From: Anas platyrhynchos
Lineage: Eukaryota; Chordata; Aves; Anseriformes; Anatidae
Length of the DNA stretch: 64,000 bases
Direction of reading: 5' to 3'
Assembly (NCBI RefSeq): GCF_047663525.1
Contig: NC_092621.1
Span: 10,823,001 to 10,887,000 of the forward strand
The number at the start of each line of letters is the position of its first letter. Position 1 is the stretch's first letter. Made by a program: the position numbers and the translations under genes. Shown piece after piece: positions 13,765 through 37,100 of the stretch. The notes below the pieces were generated by a model. That model ran no database searches. It saw only the letters and a program-made list of their open reading frames with translations, and had not been told where the DNA came from.

Positions 13765-24641
<10,877 letters not shown>

Positions 24642-26127: not shown

Positions 26128-26400
26128 GCGGAGTCCCAGCATGGGTTGGGTTGGGAGGGACCCTAAAGCCCACCCAATTCTGCCCCCCTGCCACGGGCAG
26201 GGACACCTCCCCCCAGCCCAGGCTGCCCCCAGCCCCATGCAGCCTGGCCTTGAGCACTGCCAGGGATGGGGCAGCCACAGCTCCTCTGTGCCAGGTCCTC
26301 ACCACCCTCAAAATAAAGAATTTATTCCAAACACCTAACCCAAATCTCCCCTCTTTTATTTTAAAGCCATTCCCCTTTGTCCTATCACCACCCCCAGACA
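26128..26400 (-). mobile_element. CR1 LINE 3' fragment
   Basis: The sequence follows the reverse complement of avian CR1 3' ends. It starts like the CAGAATGGGTTGGGTTGGAAGGGACC class, passes GGGCAGGGACACCTCC and GGCCTTGAGCACTGCCAGGGATGGGGC, and continues to TTTAAAGCCATTCCCC. It is 5'-truncated and diverged. It lies 470 bp upstream of the APH1 start codon. Confidence 0.85.
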
Positions 26401-26555
26401 CAGATCCCCCCCCAGCTCTCCTGCAGCCCCCTTTATGCAGCACCCCCAGCCGCAGCACCTTCCCCGGGCCACCCCCGGACACCCCACGGGGGACCCCCCC
26501 TTTGCGGGACACGGCCACCGTGGGCTCCGGGTAGACCAGGCGGCCCTGGGCGGGG

Positions 26556-26648
26556 CCACGCCCCCTGTGTCTAGACCACGCCCCTTATGCTTAGACCACG
26601 CCCCCTCCTGGCAGACCACGCCCCCTCCCCGAAGCCACGCCCCCTCCC
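26556..26648 (+). promoter_or_regulatory. Five CCACGCCCC boxes at 20-bp spacing upstream of APH1
   Basis: CCACGCCCC begins at 26556, 26576, 26596, 26616 and 26635, so the first four are exactly 20 bp apart and the last 19. The motif is a GC/CACCC-type box recognised by KLF/SP-family factors. The array is 220-310 bp upstream of the ATG in CpG-rich DNA without a TATA box. Function is inferred; the pattern is directly visible. Confidence 0.65.
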
Positions 26649-26865
26649 GGTTCCCCGCCCCCGCTGCCCGGTGCCGGCCCCGCCCCTCGCCGCTCTTCCG
26701 GGCCGGGCGGCGGCGCGCGCAGGCGGCGGGTGACGTCAGGCGGCCCCGGAAGGGCGGGGGGCGCGGGCCGGGAGCAGGCGGGACCCCGCGGTGCGAGCCC
26801 AGCCCGGGACCCCCCCCGGGACCGGAGCCGGTGCCGGTACCGGAGCCGGTACCGGAGCCGCAGCC

Positions 26866-29695
26866 ATGACGCTCGCCGTCTTCTTCGGGTGCACCTTCAT
26901 CGCCTTCGGGCCGGCGCTCAGCCTCTTCCTCTTCACCATCGCCCGCGACCCGCTGCGCATCATCATCCTCATCGCCGGGTCCGTGCCGGCACCGGGACCG
27001 GGACCGGGACCGGGGGGTGGGGGGCACCGGCACCGGGATCAGCACCGGGACCCGCACCCAGCCCGGGGCACGGTGCTGCGGCTGGTACCGGTATGGGTAC
27101 GGGGCTGGGGTGGGCACTGGTACCGGTACCGGTATGGGTATGGGGCTGGGGTGGGCACTGGTACCGGTACCGGTACCGGGAGGGGTGGTGGTGCCGGTAC
27201 GGGTGTGCACAGCAGGGCTACGGCACCCGCACCGGTGTGGGCACGGCCACAGCCACCGGTACCCGCACTGCTATGAGTGCTGCAGGACCACCAGCACCCA
27301 TACTGGTACCAGTACCGGGCACTGGTGTGGGCACCGGGGGTGTCACGGGCACAACGCGACCCCCGGTACTCACGGGGGCACCGGTACCGGGGCACCGGCA
27401 CCATCACGGGCACCACCAGTACCATGGCACCGGTACCAGTATGGGCACCGCCAGTGCTCACAGCACCACCAGTACCATGGCACTGGTACCAGTACGGGCA
27501 GCACCAGTACACGGCGGTGCCCAGGCCCCGTTACCGTCCCCGGTACCGTCCCGGTGACACGCTCCCGGTGCCCCGCAGGGCGTTCTTCTGGCTGGTGTCG
27601 CTGCTGCTGTCCTCCCTCATCTGGTTCATCGCGGTGAAGGCCAGCGACCCGCGCGACGAGGCGCTGCAGCGGGGGCTGCTGATCTTCGGGGTGATGTTCT
27701 CGGTGCTGCTGCAGGAGGCCTTCCGCTTCCTCTACTACAAGCTGCTCAGGTACCGGGGGGCACGGGGACACCGGGGCAAAGTCTGAGCCCCAGACCCGGT
27801 GGCGGTGGTGGTGGCGGCGGGGAGGTGGCAGCACTGCGGCACGCAGGCAGAGGGTGGCAGAGCTCCGTCCTGCAGAGCCCCGGCCTCTCCTCCCTGCAAT
27901 CTTCTTTTCCTATTTTTTTTTTTTTTTTTTGGAGCTTCTTTCTGCACCCTCTGTGTTTTTTTTTTTTTTCTTTTTTTTTGTGTGTTTTCTAAAAAAAAAT
28001 ATAATAGGTTTGCTCTCCCAGCTGCGTGCGTGCCCTAGGGGTGCGCTCTGCAGCTTGCGGTGCTGCTGCTGGGGCTGCGGCACCCCGGCGGCCCCCACAC
28101 CTGGTCTGTGGGGTTGGATTTGGGGTCACGGAGTCATTAGGGTTGGAAACAACCTCCGAGATCTGTTCCAGCCACCCCCCTGCCACCACTGTCACACACC
28201 AAACCCTGTCCCCAAGCACCACGTCCAGCCTTTCCTTGAACACCCCCAGGGACGGTGACTCCACCACCTCCCTGGGCAACCCGTCCCAGTGCCTGGCTGC
28301 TCTTTCTGAGAATAAATTTCTAATTTCCAACCTGAACCTCCCCCGGCACGCTCCAGGCCCTCGATGTCCTTGTGCTGAGGGTCCCAAAGCTGAACAAGTC
28401 CCCGAGGTGGCCTCAGCCCCGTGGCGGTGGCTCAGGAGGGTCCCCGCGGTGCGTTTTGGTGCAGAGTGCCCGCAGGGCCATTAATCAAGGGCAGGATTTT
28501 TGAGCGAGGAGCCAGGTGCCTGCTGGTGACACATTTTTCCCTGCAGGAAGGCCATCGAGGGGCTGGTGGCGCTCAGCGAGGACGGCTGCTCGCCCATCTC
28601 CATCCAGCAAATGGCATACGGTGAGTGCCGCGCGGGTACCCGGGGTACTGGTGGGGTTTGGGGGGTCCCTGGGGGTGGGGGTGGGGGACCGTGGATTTGG
28701 GGTGTCACGGCCTCTCTGTCCCGGCAGTGGCTGGCGTGGGCTTTGGGCTGATGAGCGGTGCCTTCTCCATGATCAACCTCCTGGCAGACGCGCTGGGACC
28801 GGGCACCGTGGGCATCCACGGGGACTCGCAGCTCTACTTCCTGACCTCAGGTGAGGAATGGGGCCGTAACCCACATCCCTGCTCCCCGTACCCATCGGAG
28901 CCCCCCGCAGGGCCCGTGGCTCCCTGTTGACCCCCCGCTGTTGCTCCCCGCAGCCTTCATGACCATGGTGTTGATTTTCCTGCACACCTTCTGGGGCATC
29001 CTCTTCTTCCACGGCTGCGAGAACCGGCGCTGGTGGGAGATCGCCGCCGTCGTCCTCATGCACCTCGCGGTTTCGGGGTCGGTGAGTGCTGCGAGCAGAG
29101 CCCCGTGCTGCCTCCAGGGATGCTGCCACACATCCCTGTCCCATCCCAGACCCTCACCAGGCTTCCCACACCACTGGAACCATCAGGAGGGGGACACGGT
29201 GGCTACGTGGAGCAGCCGGGCTGTGGGAGACCCCTCTCACCCTTTCCCTTTTTTGCTTTTCCCCCCACCCCAGACGTTTTGGAACCCGCTGTACGTGGGC
29301 AGCCTGGTGCCCTCCTACCTGCTGATGGCCGCTGCTGCTGTCTGGGCTTACCTGCTCTCGGGGGGCTCTGCACAGAACCTGCGCCGCTTCCTGCTCTGTA
29401 AGTGCCTGGTAAAGGGGCACAGGGACCCCTCTGGGTGCTGGGGACCCTCTGGGTGCTGGGGACCCTCTGGGTGCCGGGGACCCTCTGGGTGCTGGGTCCT
29501 GGGGTGGGGAAAGGGTCTCTTGGGGAACGAGGCGAGGAGCTGACTGCCTCTCCCACGGGACAGGAGGAGACCCTGGGGCTGACTCCGAGGGGGAGGTGGT
29601 TTGGGTATGAAATTTGGTGAAAATCTCCCCCCCACCACCCCGTCTTGGTTTCCACAGGTTCGCAGAGCGGAGCCAGCCCCCAGCTGGCATCCTGA
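26866..29695 (+). CDS. APH1-family gamma-secretase subunit, complete
   Basis: APH1 is the seven-pass membrane scaffold of gamma-secretase, with presenilin, nicastrin and PEN-2; the complex cleaves Notch, APP and many other membrane stubs. Exons: 26866-26978, 27579-27749, 28547-28620, 28728-28850, 28954-29081, 29274-29397, 29658-29695; phases agree, giving 256 residues (family about 247-265). Visible landmarks: N-terminal [24 protein letters not shown], the G-xxx-G-xxx-G helix motif (GVGFGLMSG), and the two conserved histidines in GIHGDS and FLHTFWG. Some positions look like APH1A ([16 protein letters not shown]), others like APH1B ([26 protein letters not shown]), so I leave the symbol open. 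The C-terminal tail [11 protein letters not shown] matches neither. The exon 1 donor GG|GTCCGT is poor but phase and homology require it. It sits between TPM2 and CA9. Confidence 0.95.
26979..27578. repeat. ACCGGT/ACCGGC minisatellite filling APH1 intron 1
   Basis: Nearly the whole 600-bp intron consists of short units on ACCGGTACC, ACCGGCACC and GGTATGGGTA, with a duplicated block of about 50 bp (27083-27180) containing GGGGCTGGGGTGGGCACTGG. The same hexamer theme is already present in the 5' UTR (26819-26860). It keeps a 275-codon + frame open across exon 1 that is not a gene. Confidence 0.85.
28127..28410 (-). mobile_element. CR1 LINE fragment in APH1 intron 2
   Basis: Diverged reverse complement of a CR1 3' end: CACGGAGTCATTAGGGTTGG start, then ACGGTGACTCCACCACCTCC, CCAGTGCCTGGCTGC and a final stretch about tail-region deletions near 28400. 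It lies wholly in the intron between exons 2 and 3. Confidence 0.85.
29422..29494. repeat. 18-bp tandem repeat beside APH1 exon 6
   Basis: About four copies of GGGACCCTCTGGGTGCTG beginning 25 nt past the exon 6 donor; one copy has a C for T change. Confidence 0.85.
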
Positions 29696-30484: not shown

Positions 30485-30490
30485 AATAAA
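30485..30490 (+). terminator. Proximal APH1 polyadenylation signal
   Basis: AATAAA running directly into a genomic A-tract (to about 30500). The A-tract could cause internal oligo-dT priming in cDNA, so use of this site should be judged with care. Confidence 0.55.
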
Positions 30491-31165: not shown

Positions 31166-34100
31166 TCACGCTGTGTTCTCGGTGGTGGCCGCTGTGTAGA
31201 TGACCTTGGATTTGGTGGGCGAGTCCAGCCTGGCGTGGGACAAAGAGCAGGGTGTTAGGGCAGAGAGGGAAGCCCCGAAAACTCGTCTGCGTAACGCTCG
31301 TTTCCCATACAGCAGTGTGCAGGGGTATGGGGGGGGGGACAGCGGTGCCCCCGACCCTGCTCTGCCCACCACTCACCGTGCGTTCTGGCTGCGCTGCTTG
31401 TAGACGTAGTACATGAAGGCCAGTGCTGTGATGGCAAAGAGCACCCCGAAGACCACAGCCAACACGTCCCCTGCAAGCCCAGCACAGGCACGTCACGGGG
31501 CGGGTGGTGGTGGTGGTGGTGAGGGGAGTAGGGGGGGGACACAGGGCTGGGGGGGGACACGGAGCCAGCAGCCTCGGCTGAGCACACTTACCTGCGTGAA
31601 ACGAGGAGCTGGTCTGTCCCGCTGAGGAAAAATTAAAAAAGGAGAGGTGTGAGAGCCTGCTGTAGGGATGCCAGAACAGCCCCCCCATGGCTGCATGCCC
31701 CATCCCCACTGGGTGTCCCCCGGCACCCTCCCCAGGGCCAGCACCTCCTGTGCCTGCTGCCACCACCCCCAGGAGACACAGCACAGCCAGGGGGGGAGGA
31801 AAGTGCCAGTACAAGGCTTTGCCAAACCTGGGCTGCTCTCGTTGCTCCCCACGTGGGGACAGCCAGCCCACACCACCACCTACCCATGCCCTAAATCCTG
31901 TGCCAGGCAATATTTACCTAGCGCAGCAGCGCTGCTCTGCCCCGGCAGCATTATCACCTGCACAGCTCCAGCATCGCGCGCCGGGTGGCACTATCAGTGC
32001 CAGCATCCTAGAGCAGCTTTCCTGACCCTCCAGCTTGGGAAAAATCAACAAGCGTGGGTGAGGGAGGTAGAGCTGAAAGCGAGGTGGGACAGGACCCAGC
32101 CCCACTGGTGCACGGGGCGGTGTGGAGCGGGGAAGGCTGCACCACCCCAGTGCCTGCCAGGTCTGGGGACCAGCAACCTCATCCGGGAGCACAGGGACAC
32201 CAGCCCGGCACTCAGACACACGACTTCAGGGCCACAGGCTTTGTTTGGGGTGGTTTGATAGAAATAGCAAACGGGAAGAAAAGAGGTGAGCTCATTTGCA
32301 CCTCCGCCCCCTCGCCTCTGCCGGCGCCTGCTGAGGAATAGCTTCTGCAGAAAGGGGTAAAAGAAAAGGCTCGGAGGTAAACGGAGAGCACGATAATGTT
32401 TCTAGCAGGTTTACCAAAGATAGAGCATGCCAGCCCAACCCGATATCCTTCTCTGATAAGTGATATTCCAGACAAAGAAAATGCGGTAGATTTTATCTCC
32501 CCGGGCTTCAGTGAAGCATTTGCCGTGGAGCCATCCGGGAAGCTGCGAGCGAGGCCGAGGACCATGGTGATTAAATCCTGCAGCCCTTAACGAGCTGGCT
32601 GCAGGTGTGGTGGTGAGGAGAGGTGGCATACCACTGTGTGGTTAGCCAGGCATTCCCCTGGGGCCCGGGACCCATCCTGTGTGCTATTTCTATTAGTCAC
32701 CTTGACACAAGGCGACAAATGCCAGCGGAAAGGAGGAGGAACAGGATGTTGGACAGGGAAAAAAAGCCCCAAGCGAGCTCAGAGAACTGAAAAGGGGCAC
32801 CGACACGGTGATGCAGAGTGATAGTCGCACCTGAGGGCTAGCGGGAACTTCTACTCATAGCTGGAAACCACCAGAAAGGGCTTCGAGGACACACCGAGGG
32901 AACCATCCTCTGTTTGTCCTCGAGCAGGGTGGTGAGTACCCAGCCTGGCACCCCCCAGCCCTGCTCCAAAACCCAGGGTAACCCATTAGAAAAATGCATT
33001 CCCCTAAGAGAAGCCTCGCCCCACTTTTTGCCCTGCGCCCCAGCAGCCCGGTGCACCCCCAGGGTGCTCGCGCGCTCCTTACCCGTGGGCACCTGCCTCT
33101 CCCGGGACAAGGTGGGCTCGAAGCTCGCCAGCACCCACCGCTTGTGCAGGGCCTGGGTCGGCCGAAAATTATTCTGCAGGGGCTTGCCGTCGTCGTACTG
33201 CAGGCTCGTCACCAGCACCGAGATCTGGGAGGAGAGAGCAGGGTGAATAGGGCGGGGTGCGCACTGTGCTGGGGAGCCAAAAAGCCCCGGCGCACGGCAT
33301 CCACGGGGACCTGCACGGGCGCTGCCCCAACAGACCTGGTCATGGGAGAGCATCACGGTCTGGTTGAAGACCGTCCACATCACCGACTGGAAGCAGGGAG
33401 GGGTGGTCAGGGAGCCATTGTAGCGGTAATAGAGGTGCAGGCTGTCGGGCAGCAAGCCCGCGATGTTGAACCCGGGCACCATGACTTCCTCATCTGGGAG
33501 GAGAAGGCAGGGGAGTGAGGGCAGCCCCAGGGAGGGGAACGGGACCAAGCGCGGGGCTCACGGAGCACACCCGACCCGGGGCATCGCCCAGCCCAGCCTC
33601 GCACCACCCTGCTGCATGCACCCCGTGTGCCAGGGAGTGCAGGGGATTCTCCCTTCCTCTCCACTGCAAGGGGTTTCTCTGCTGGGAGCCTTACCTTCTC
33701 CTTGGATTTTTTGGAGATGCTTGATGATTTCCTCGTAGTAAGGGTTCTCCCTCGGCCCGACCTGCAATGCAGCAGCAAAAGGAGGTTTGGCTGCCTGCGA
33801 GGGGCACCCTGTCCTGCTGGACCCTCTTCGCCACGGGCACCAGCACCATTGCGGGTCCCCAGAATTACCCCTGACGCCCAGCCCGGTCCCACTCCCACCC
33901 CTCCTTGCCCAGGTCTGGGCTCTGGTTCTCACCTCCAGGAAGACTCCCAGCACGGCCAGCCCATCCGGGTAGCCCAAGGCCACCTTGAAGTTTTCGTACT
34001 TGGTGTTGTAGTGGACCACGTGGAGCTGGAGGGAAACACACAGCCCCGATGCAGGTTGGGCACCCCAAAGAGGTGCGCACCCCCATGGGGGCTCCCCGAC

Positions 34101-37100
34101 CATTGCAAGGGCTGGGAGAGGCATGCAGCCACACTGAGCATCCCTGCTAGGGGTAAATGTGCAGCTGGGATGGAGACAACACGTGCCAGTGGATAGAAGT
34201 GAGCACAAACAGCTGCCCATGGGAGCTGCCTTGCTTACAGGCAGCAAACCAGCCCCGGATAGCGGGGCTGGAGGACAGCAGCTGGTGGAAAAAAAGGGGT
34301 AAAACCATTTGGGAGCTGGCAGGGCAGGCTGTATACATGGGAAACTCCTTCTCCATTAGCCCAGCATTGGGAGAGGACGGTGGAGGGGGACGAGGGCTCC
34401 TCACCTCCCCAGCAAAACGCTTCCTGTTCACGGTGTGCTCGGAGCCAGCTGTCGACGGGGAGCCCCAGTGCAGGTGCAGCTGCTTGGCTTGGTACTGCTG
34501 GGCATAGCCACCCGTGATGGCCATGGACTCGGGCAGATCCAGGACAACTGCGGGGCAGGAGGGAGAGGTCGGTCAGTAAAACACAGAGTCCAGTCCGCCC
34601 CAGGTTCGCAGAGGAGGTGGCTTGGGGGAAAGAGTCACCCTGGGCTGGTGGAAGCTGGAGACAGCGAACAGACTCGCTTTTGATCTCTAACGAGGCTGTA
34701 GGTGGGGCAGTGGATAGCGCTGTGCAAATGCAGCAGGGTTTGGCTTTCGGCTTGGGGTTGTAGGACACCCAGATAAATAAATCACGGCGGCTGTTCCTGG
34801 AGCTGGAAGTGCTCAGAGGGCTCTGCCCCTCTGCAGAGACTCACGGGGCAGCCCTGTGCTGGATGCTGTCCAACACCTGATGCACTAAGCGAGGATAATA
34901 TAAAGAGCCCGTGGGCAAAGTTCAAGGATCGGCAGGCAAAACTCAAGGATTTGAATTTTTGGCCAAGACCAAGTCCAAAATTTCCATCTAGCAAAGCCAG
35001 CCCTCACGCCGTGGTGTGGCACACCTCAGGGCTGAGCTACTGGGACATGCACCAAAGCCACCCGGAGCATCCCCGGACCCTGAGAAAAGCTGCCCTCTCC
35101 TTCCAAGCACCTTCTAATTCTTAACGTCAGCCCTTTTCCTTCCTCATGCCTCTGTAGGTGAAGTGTCAGTCACATCGCCAGCCAGGGCACAGGTTTGGGA
35201 TCAGGAACACAACGCGGCTGTGATGAGTCATTTGTCCTCTCCTGTGCCGCCTGCCACCGGGCTCGGAGATACAGAACTCAAATACAGGAAGCGGGACACT
35301 GCTCCCTCCCTGGGGATTTACCTGCTTCAACATTTCTTTTGTGTATCTAGATCAGGGCATTCCTAGTATTTATCTGAGTCATTTTCAGGCCCTTGCAAAA
35401 GTCTGTGCAGCGAACACGTTGTATAAGGAGGAGCGACAGCAGAAATACCCCGGCTTTTCAGAACGAGCACAGAAGGCTCCATAATAATAATAATAATTTA
35501 AAAAGGCATCTTATAAGCAGACGAGAAACTTCTTCACCCCCCAGCCCTCTCAACAAAAATGTTACAAGTGCTTTCTGAACACCAAGCAACGCCAGATGCC
35601 AGGGTGTCCAAAATAGCAACCGCTGAGCTCGACCCGTTCAGCTATGCAGGCACGCTGGGGCGGGAGGCTGTAAAACAGAGCTCTGGGCACGCAGCGAGTC
35701 CGACTGGTCGAGTGTGCTGCATCGGGTCACGGGGCTGTTTTATCACACCTTCAGCAGGTTGCTGTCCCCAGCAGCTTCTCTTGGGGACCGGCAGCCACCA
35801 GCGCGCACAGGATGAGCGAGGTGCTCCTGGAAAGACCTGGTGGCAGCCAGGAGCTGCCATCTCCAGCTGCAGGGCAGGAAGGAAATTTTTTTTTTTTTTT
35901 TCTTTTTTTTCCCCCCCAAAAAAGTTGGAACGGAATCCATTTATGTTAACGTAGCATCAGTCTTTCCATGCCAGATAGTGCATGTATCTGCATGCAGTAT
36001 TTAGAAGGGCTTTATAGCCCTTCTAAAACTGGAGAAGGGAAATAAACAATTTCTAAAAGTGCCCTAAGATCCTGAGATAGTGTCTTGAAGCATGGGCTTT
36101 AAATTGGCCAAAGCTGTGTCCTAGAAGACTGAGGGGTGGGTACCATCAGGGCTAATCACACCAGGGACCAACCAGTCCTTTGAAAGTGGAAACGATGCCT
36201 GCAAACTTGCACCAGAAGTATTAGGGGCATGTTTTTAGAGGAAACATGGATTATAACAAATTCCCGGAGCCACCACCCAAAGGCAGCGAGTTGTGAGCTC
36301 TCCATCTCCTGGTTTCTCCCCTCCAGGCTGGAAAGCACCTGAACAAAGCTCTCCAAGAGCCACTGGGAGGGTTTCAGGGAAGCCTGGTCCTGCCAGGAGC
36401 GGCACCCGGTGCCTTTCGCACCCACCTGTGTGCCCGTTGTTCTTCAGCTTGAACTTCTTGCTGTTGGGCAGGCTGTACCCGGAGAGCTGGATGGGCTGCA
36501 GCTCGGGGCTGAAGATGGTCTTCTCCGTCTCGATGTTGATGGGGGACTGCTTGTTGCCCGAGCAGGCCGGGTAGTGCTCGCCCCAGCGCTCCGGTTCTGC
36601 AACGGGGAGGCAGCAGCGGTGAGGCCAGCCAAGCGAGGAGACCCCCGGGGGGGAATTGGGGTGGGTGGGAGGGAAGGGGCAGGCGCAGTTTGGGCAGTGC
36701 ACCTCGCTCACAGGCTTGGTTTCCACCAAGCTAGCTCGGGAGCAGCTCCCTGCTGCCACGTGACGGCGCGCAGCTGTGCCACGAAAGGGCTCCGAGCGCG
36801 GTGAGCTGCCAGAAAAGTCTATTTTTGGGGTGTTTGGGAAGAGCGCGAGAAGATCATTTACAAGTGGACTTGGCAGGCGGAGGAGCCTGCAGCTTGTCAC
36901 ACGCTCGCTGCTCATCGTTGCCTCTCCTGCTGCTACGTGAGCCCCTCCAGCACGGTGCCACCAGGGCCACACGTGCCCACGGCCACAGGTGGCGAGGTGC
37001 CGGCCCCACAAAGGGATGGGTGATGTCCCCAAAACCTCCCCTTACACCACAGGGGGCTGCTTCCAGCACTTTTCAGGCCAGCCCCAGCCTAGGGGACAAG

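Follow-up and report, generated by a model that had tools for sequence, protein, structure and literature searches.

Each of the three human APH-1 variants forms active complexes, and association with presenilin and nicastrin depends critically on the glycines G122, G126 and G130 (PMC2647162, accessible part of the text). The choice of APH1 matters for gamma-secretase: in mouse, loss of APH-1a is lethal, lethality is absent upon loss of APH-1b and -c, and one study suggested that longer amyloid-beta comes from APH-1b complexes (PMC4263104, accessible part). In genome history, Pedersen et al. (2019) placed APH1 among 11 families of human, chicken and gar that mark a paralogon whose four chromosomes go back to the genome duplications; in this paralogon 1, one line of the four has its chicken members on Z (PMC6354393). 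The accessible text of that paper does not assign APH1 members to chromosomes and does not discuss a third APH1 or gamma-secretase; a Z-linked APH1 of chicken may be drawn in its Fig. 3.

Two of the mammalian blocks can be read from published gene lists. In cattle, the order is USP3, CA12, APH1B, RAB8B, RPS27L, LACTB, TPM1, one unnamed gene and TLN2 (PMC10048491, accessible part), and APH1B and CA12 are named together on human chromosome 15 (PMC6620285). In the other block, CA9, TPM2 and TLN1 are consecutive in a cattle list (PMC11112828, accessible part), and in sheep 1.2 kb runs from the end of TPM2 to the start of CA9 with no gene listed between them in the accessible part of PMC6334744. 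Searched by title and abstract, the open-access literature did not describe a third APH1 ohnolog, a loss of APH1B in birds or a Z-linked gamma-secretase subunit, and the only relevant study among those listed was that on the paralogon; in their accessible parts, a paper on Notch orthologs gives human names only (PMC11594159) and a quail paper concerns APH1A (PMC6438477).

Here, we report an APH1 gene that is located between TPM2 and CA9 in a bird. Human 9p13 is not known to contain an APH1.

Structure and neighborhood of the gene

The window, i.e., the whole stretch of DNA that was analyzed, is 64,000 nucleotides long (C35:10823001-10887000), and the genome searched is that of one bird (1.26 Gb, 42 contigs). 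The original prediction placed an intact 256-codon APH1 between TPM2 and CA9, and the gene model that we rebuilt from the window DNA has exactly these bounds (Table 1): seven exons, 256 codons plus TGA, no internal stop, and GT-AG borders in all six introns. We use APH1-Z as a working name for this Z-chromosome gene, a model of which presumably exists in genome databases. Its protein is a full-length match to the family (Pfam Aph-1 PF06105, E 3e-92, profile positions 1-231 of 231, score 308.6 bits where the cut-off is 25.6), and retains G122, G126 and G130 of the GxxxG helix together with H171 and H197, the histidines with a functional role in APH1. The predicted unique tail is there as well: 11 residues of its own versus SRVMMYSALR in bird APH1A. 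A pseudogene or a retrocopy was considered and ruled out, as the gene has seven exons, clean splice sites and no stop; the presence of introns means that it is no retrocopy. The start of the gene is embedded in a CpG-rich stretch, where the observed/expected ratio of CpG is 0.68-0.78 (three stretches within it) versus 0.22-0.47 in six stretches sampled outside. Intron 1 (26979-27578) is, judged by eye, packed with short repeats of the GGTACC type. When nine long open reading frames of the window were compared with Pfam, the sole match was a carbonic anhydrase exon.

Table 1 Features of the window (positions counted from its first nucleotide)
Feature	Position	Strand	Remarks
TPM2, tropomyosin exons detected at three places (13765-13878, 20044-20181, 20589-20711)	13765..20711	+	tropomyosin search; gene continues beyond
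CpG-rich stretch, promoter-like, spanning APH1-Z start	26400..27900	.	CpG obs/exp
APH1-Z coding span, ATG to TGA	26866..29695	+	7 exons, 256 aa
APH1-Z exon 1	26866..26978	+	113 nt; length equal to C26 APH1A exon 1
APH1-Z exon 2	27579..27749	+	171 nt
APH1-Z exon 3	28547..28620	+	74 nt
APH1-Z exon 4	28728..28850	+	123 nt; encodes G122, G126, G130 (GxxxG assembly motif)
APH1-Z exon 5	28954..29081	+	128 nt; encodes H171, H197
APH1-Z exon 6	29274..29397	+	124 nt
APH1-Z exon 7	29658..29695	+	own short tail and stop
AATAAA, possible polyadenylation signal of APH1-Z	30485..30490	+	790 bases beyond stop
CA9, four detected exons (36421-36597, 34402-34545, 33921-34034, 33333-33494)	33333..36597	-	carbonic anhydrase search; tail-to-tail with APH1-Z

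The left neighbor is a tropomyosin gene which we take to be TPM2 from its position and the human TPM2 sequence. Farther left and beyond the window, Talin_middle matches at C35:10813357-10814502 mark a talin gene on the plus strand, named TLN1 by position; the original prediction had placed the APH1 downstream of TLN1. The carbonic anhydrase on the right scored highest with CA9 when compared with solved structures by phmmer (190 bits, followed by CA14 with 180 and CA12 with 171). That these neighbors are instead the TPM3 and CA14 of the 1q21 block is disfavored: CA9 is best by 10 bits over CA14, and CA14 is found together with APH1A on another contig, C26.

APH1 genes and paralogous blocks in the genome

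An Aph-1 profile search of the genome gave eight matches (16 candidates scored), and with human APH1B as query there were 10 (E up to 10). Each of these matches is on C35, where APH1-Z is, or on C26. The C26 locus is APH1A, with 265 residues and the tail SRVMMYSALR, which is like that of human APH1A. The two bird genes agree in the length and phase of each of exons 1-6, and the arrangement is also the same: APH1A(+) and CA14(-) are tail-to-tail on C26, as are APH1-Z(+) and CA9(-) on C35. The carbonic anhydrase of C26 is CA14 (phmmer against solved structures, 161 bits versus 130 for CA9). Upstream of APH1A (L011 3000-3440), a small reading frame with an ITIM-like LTYAQL motif was seen by eye; it perhaps represents the final exons of a gene for an immune receptor or adaptor.

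Talins were found on C35, C34 and C11, named by position TLN1 (C35, C34) and TLN2 (C11), and tropomyosins on C35 and C34 (TPM2), C11 (TPM1), C26 (TPM3) and C29 (TPM4); these names are our assumption from position and sequence. With a RAB8B query, for which 150 of 231 candidates were scored, RAB8B itself was located on C11 (10796963-10818727) between TPM1 and CA12. The matches listed also included one of 93% directly after TPM4 on C29 (region 2452911-2464547) and one of 74% on C26, 43 kb from TPM3 (region 2764827-2815886), which would be RAB8A and RAB13, respectively; the TPM-RAB pair of C26 sits 1.5 Mb from APH1A-CA14. Genes of the RAB8/RAB13 type thus come after tropomyosin genes in three paralogous blocks (C11, C29 and C26), and this suggests that RAB8 was part of the ancestral block. 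Among the matches listed for the same query, none of the RAB8 type adjoins TPM2 on Z. Taken together, the pieces are TLN-TPM-APH1-CA on C35, TLN-TPM-RAB8B-(no APH1 match)-CA on C11, APH1-CA plus TPM-RAB on C26 and TPM-RAB8 on C29, from which an ancestral series of talin, tropomyosin, RAB8, APH1 and carbonic anhydrase, in this order, can be read. In the Z block, the place of APH1 is taken by APH1-Z.

The APH1B position between RAB8B and CA12

The original prediction looked to APH1A beside CA14 and APH1B beside CA12 in the same genome; the former is in place, and no APH1B was found at the latter site. On C11, TLN2(+), TPM1(+) and RAB8B(+) are followed by 28 kb without an APH1 match and then by CA12(-), identified from two exons only (phmmer against solved structures, 168 bits versus 109 for CA14). 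Neither the Aph-1 profile nor human APH1B found an APH1 between the last RAB8B exon (10818727) and the nearest detected CA12 exon (10846831). Please note that the absence of APH1B from C11 is defined by these homology searches and a direct reading of 5 kb of the 28 kb. That piece (C11 10829001-10834000) contains no N and no convincing APH1 match with four queries, the best APH1-like match listed having an E of 0.06 and a stop inside. It is AT-rich (G+C 0.355), in contrast to the GC-rich APH1-Z locus (0.65-0.66), and sequencing dropout is less likely there because of the low G+C; elsewhere in the RAB8B-CA12 interval, there may be an assembly gap. APH1-Z itself is positioned between TPM2 and CA9, not between RAB8B and CA12 where an APH1B ortholog belongs. 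As APH1A is found beside CA14 and no APH1B beside CA12, one ohnolog would have been swapped for another in this bird and none added.

Sex chromosomes

A CHD1-type C-terminal profile gave four matches, one each on C35, C34, C11 and C20. CHD1, which has a Z and a W copy, is classically used for sexing birds; the matches on C11 and C20 would be related CHD genes. The talin and tropomyosin pair is found on both C35 and C34, with compared exons near-identical in protein and aligned DNA pieces 69-92% identical. From the CHD1-type matches and the shared pair, we therefore assigned C35 (86.2 Mb) to Z and C34 to W, and regarded the bird as a female. The interval 3456687-3498418 of C34 contains what we regard as the W gametologs of talin-1 and tropomyosin-2. 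We also considered C34 as a further paralogon and dropped it, given the near-identical proteins, that level of DNA identity and the CHD1-type profile matches on both contigs.

No APH1 was found on the W contig by the Aph-1 profile, by human APH1B, or by the DNA of exons 3-6 of APH1-Z with their introns, a query with four matches that are all on C35 or C26; a carbonic anhydrase search gave no match for CA9 on W. Because no APH1 was found on C34, APH1-Z appears to be hemizygous in females.

Sequence comparison and tree

Among solved structures, the relatives of APH1-Z at E up to 0.001 are two distinct sequences only, human APH1A (346 bits) and human APH1B (295 bits). Over 244 core columns, APH1-Z is 61.9% identical to bird APH1A, 63.5% to human APH1A and 56.6% to human APH1B; the corresponding values are 79.9% between bird and human APH1A and 59.0% between human APH1A and APH1B. 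Maximum likelihood distances from APH1-Z are 0.70 (bird APH1A), 0.66 (human APH1A) and 0.90 (human APH1B), next to 0.255 between the two APH1A proteins and 0.82 between human APH1A and APH1B. The protein had been said to mix A-like and B-like positions, and so it does: at the 66 core sites where bird and human APH1A agree and differ from human APH1B, it has the A residue at 30, the B residue at 12 and neither at 24.

The tree consists of five sequences and is provisionally rooted with a Drosophila sequence. A position of APH1-Z within APH1A was rejected by the AU test (p 0.003 and 0.009), while APH1-Z as sister of APH1B (p 0.30) or as sister of APH1A (p 0.17) was not rejected with these five sequences and the provisional outgroup. 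The tree thus does not favor a third lineage over either of these two positions, and a grouping with APH1B is neither favored nor rejected. The original prediction held that a gene firmly inside the APH1A or APH1B clade, in a genome with no copy at the other site, would be a relocated APH1A or APH1B; the other site is indeed without a detected copy, and such a firm placement in either clade was not obtained. Judged from the distances (0.66-0.90, next to 0.255 for the APH1A orthologs), the divergence of APH1-Z predates the bird-mammal split, firmly so with respect to APH1A, and with respect to APH1B only if rates were not raised three- to four-fold.

Discussion

We consider it very probable that APH1-Z is a third genome-duplication ohnolog, of the 9p13 type, which this bird has retained and mammals lack, and that APH1B has had the reverse fate. 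Retention of such an ohnolog in birds and its absence from the mammalian block, as originally predicted, is supported by gene order, mammalian gene lists and sequence distance. In this scenario, a TLN-TPM-RAB8-APH1-CA block would have been copied in the vertebrate genome duplications, the APH1 of the 9p13/Z line would have been retained in this bird and lost from the mammalian block, and APH1B would have been kept beside CA12 in mammals and have gone from the bird, i.e., an exchange of ohnologs.

If the gene were instead the true ortholog of mammalian APH1B and had moved out of the CA12 slot into the CA9 slot on the way to birds, the CA12 slot would be expected to look as it does here, without an APH1 match, and the tree does not reject the sister relationship with human APH1B; the 12 B-like sites and the shared MT start with FTIA point the same way. 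Such a gene, however, would have had to land in the exact paralogous slot and orientation, beside the paralogous carbonic anhydrase, and this position makes a relocation unlikely. Its distance to human APH1B is also far above that between bird and human APH1A. Going by branch lengths, orthology would require that, since birds and mammals diverged, both APH1-Z and APH1B evolved about 3-4 times as fast as APH1A. In addition, APH1-Z matches APH1A at more sites than APH1B. Still more strongly disfavored, and extremely improbable in our opinion, is a bird- or reptile-specific APH1A duplicate that landed on Z. The best solved-structure match is indeed APH1A, but the AU test rejects APH1-Z inside that clade, it is 2.6 to 2.7 times as distant from the bird and human APH1A as these are from each other, and the gene has introns, hence is no retrocopy, and sits in the paralogous slot.

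The gene could also be a third ohnolog by origin and yet be decaying or unexpressed under relaxed constraint. Of the columns invariant in the other three sequences, APH1-Z keeps 111 of 129, bird APH1A 111 of 117 and human APH1B 111 of 141; the 18 changes in APH1-Z, compared with six in bird APH1A, seem to agree with relaxation. However, human APH1B has changed more (30 sites) and is in active complexes (PMC2647162, accessible part), and the frame of APH1-Z is intact, the splice sites are in order, the start is CpG-rich, an AATAAA lies downstream and the assembly motif is retained. We regard decay as very unlikely, slightly more so than a relocation of APH1B.

With APH1-Z read as the third ohnolog, it would, on its sequence, be an alternative scaffold subunit of gamma-secretase, replacing APH1B in this bird. 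As originally predicted, birds could then assemble a gamma-secretase type that mammals lack. The core of that prediction, a third ohnolog, is supported, and it is sharpened in that this bird would have exchanged ohnologs without gaining an extra gamma-secretase subunit. We think it somewhat likely that the ancestral set comprised at least three APH1 ohnologs, of which birds and mammals keep different members; that birds build their second gamma-secretase on a Z-linked APH1 absent in mammals; that birds have no APH1B, and any database entry under this name for a bird is a hidden paralog; and that, without a W copy, females have half the dose, in which case gamma-secretase composition, hence the processing of Notch, APP or neuregulin, could differ by sex. 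If this is true, a third APH1 class older than the bird-mammal split would be a natural variant for structure-function work, findings on mammalian APH1B could not be transferred to birds by name, and a sex-linked gamma-secretase subunit would be added to bird biology.

Compared with the known genes, APH1-Z resembles APH1A (human 1q21; C26 here) in family, in exons 1-6 of equal length and phase (C26), in the carbonic anhydrase placed tail-to-tail (CA14 here) and in 62-64% identity, and differs from an APH1A ortholog in that it lacks the SRVMMYSALR tail, adjoins CA9 on Z and is placed outside the APH1A clade. With APH1B (human 15q22), it shares the family, a paralogous slot (RAB8B-CA12 in the cattle list) and some N-terminal and transmembrane positions; it differs in its TPM2-CA9 slot, in an identity of 57% to human APH1B and in another tail, and no APH1B was found in the bird. 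A similar distribution to that proposed here is seen in the same paralogon for CHRNA8, which is present in chicken, lizard, frog and fish and not identified in mammals (PMC6354393, accessible part).
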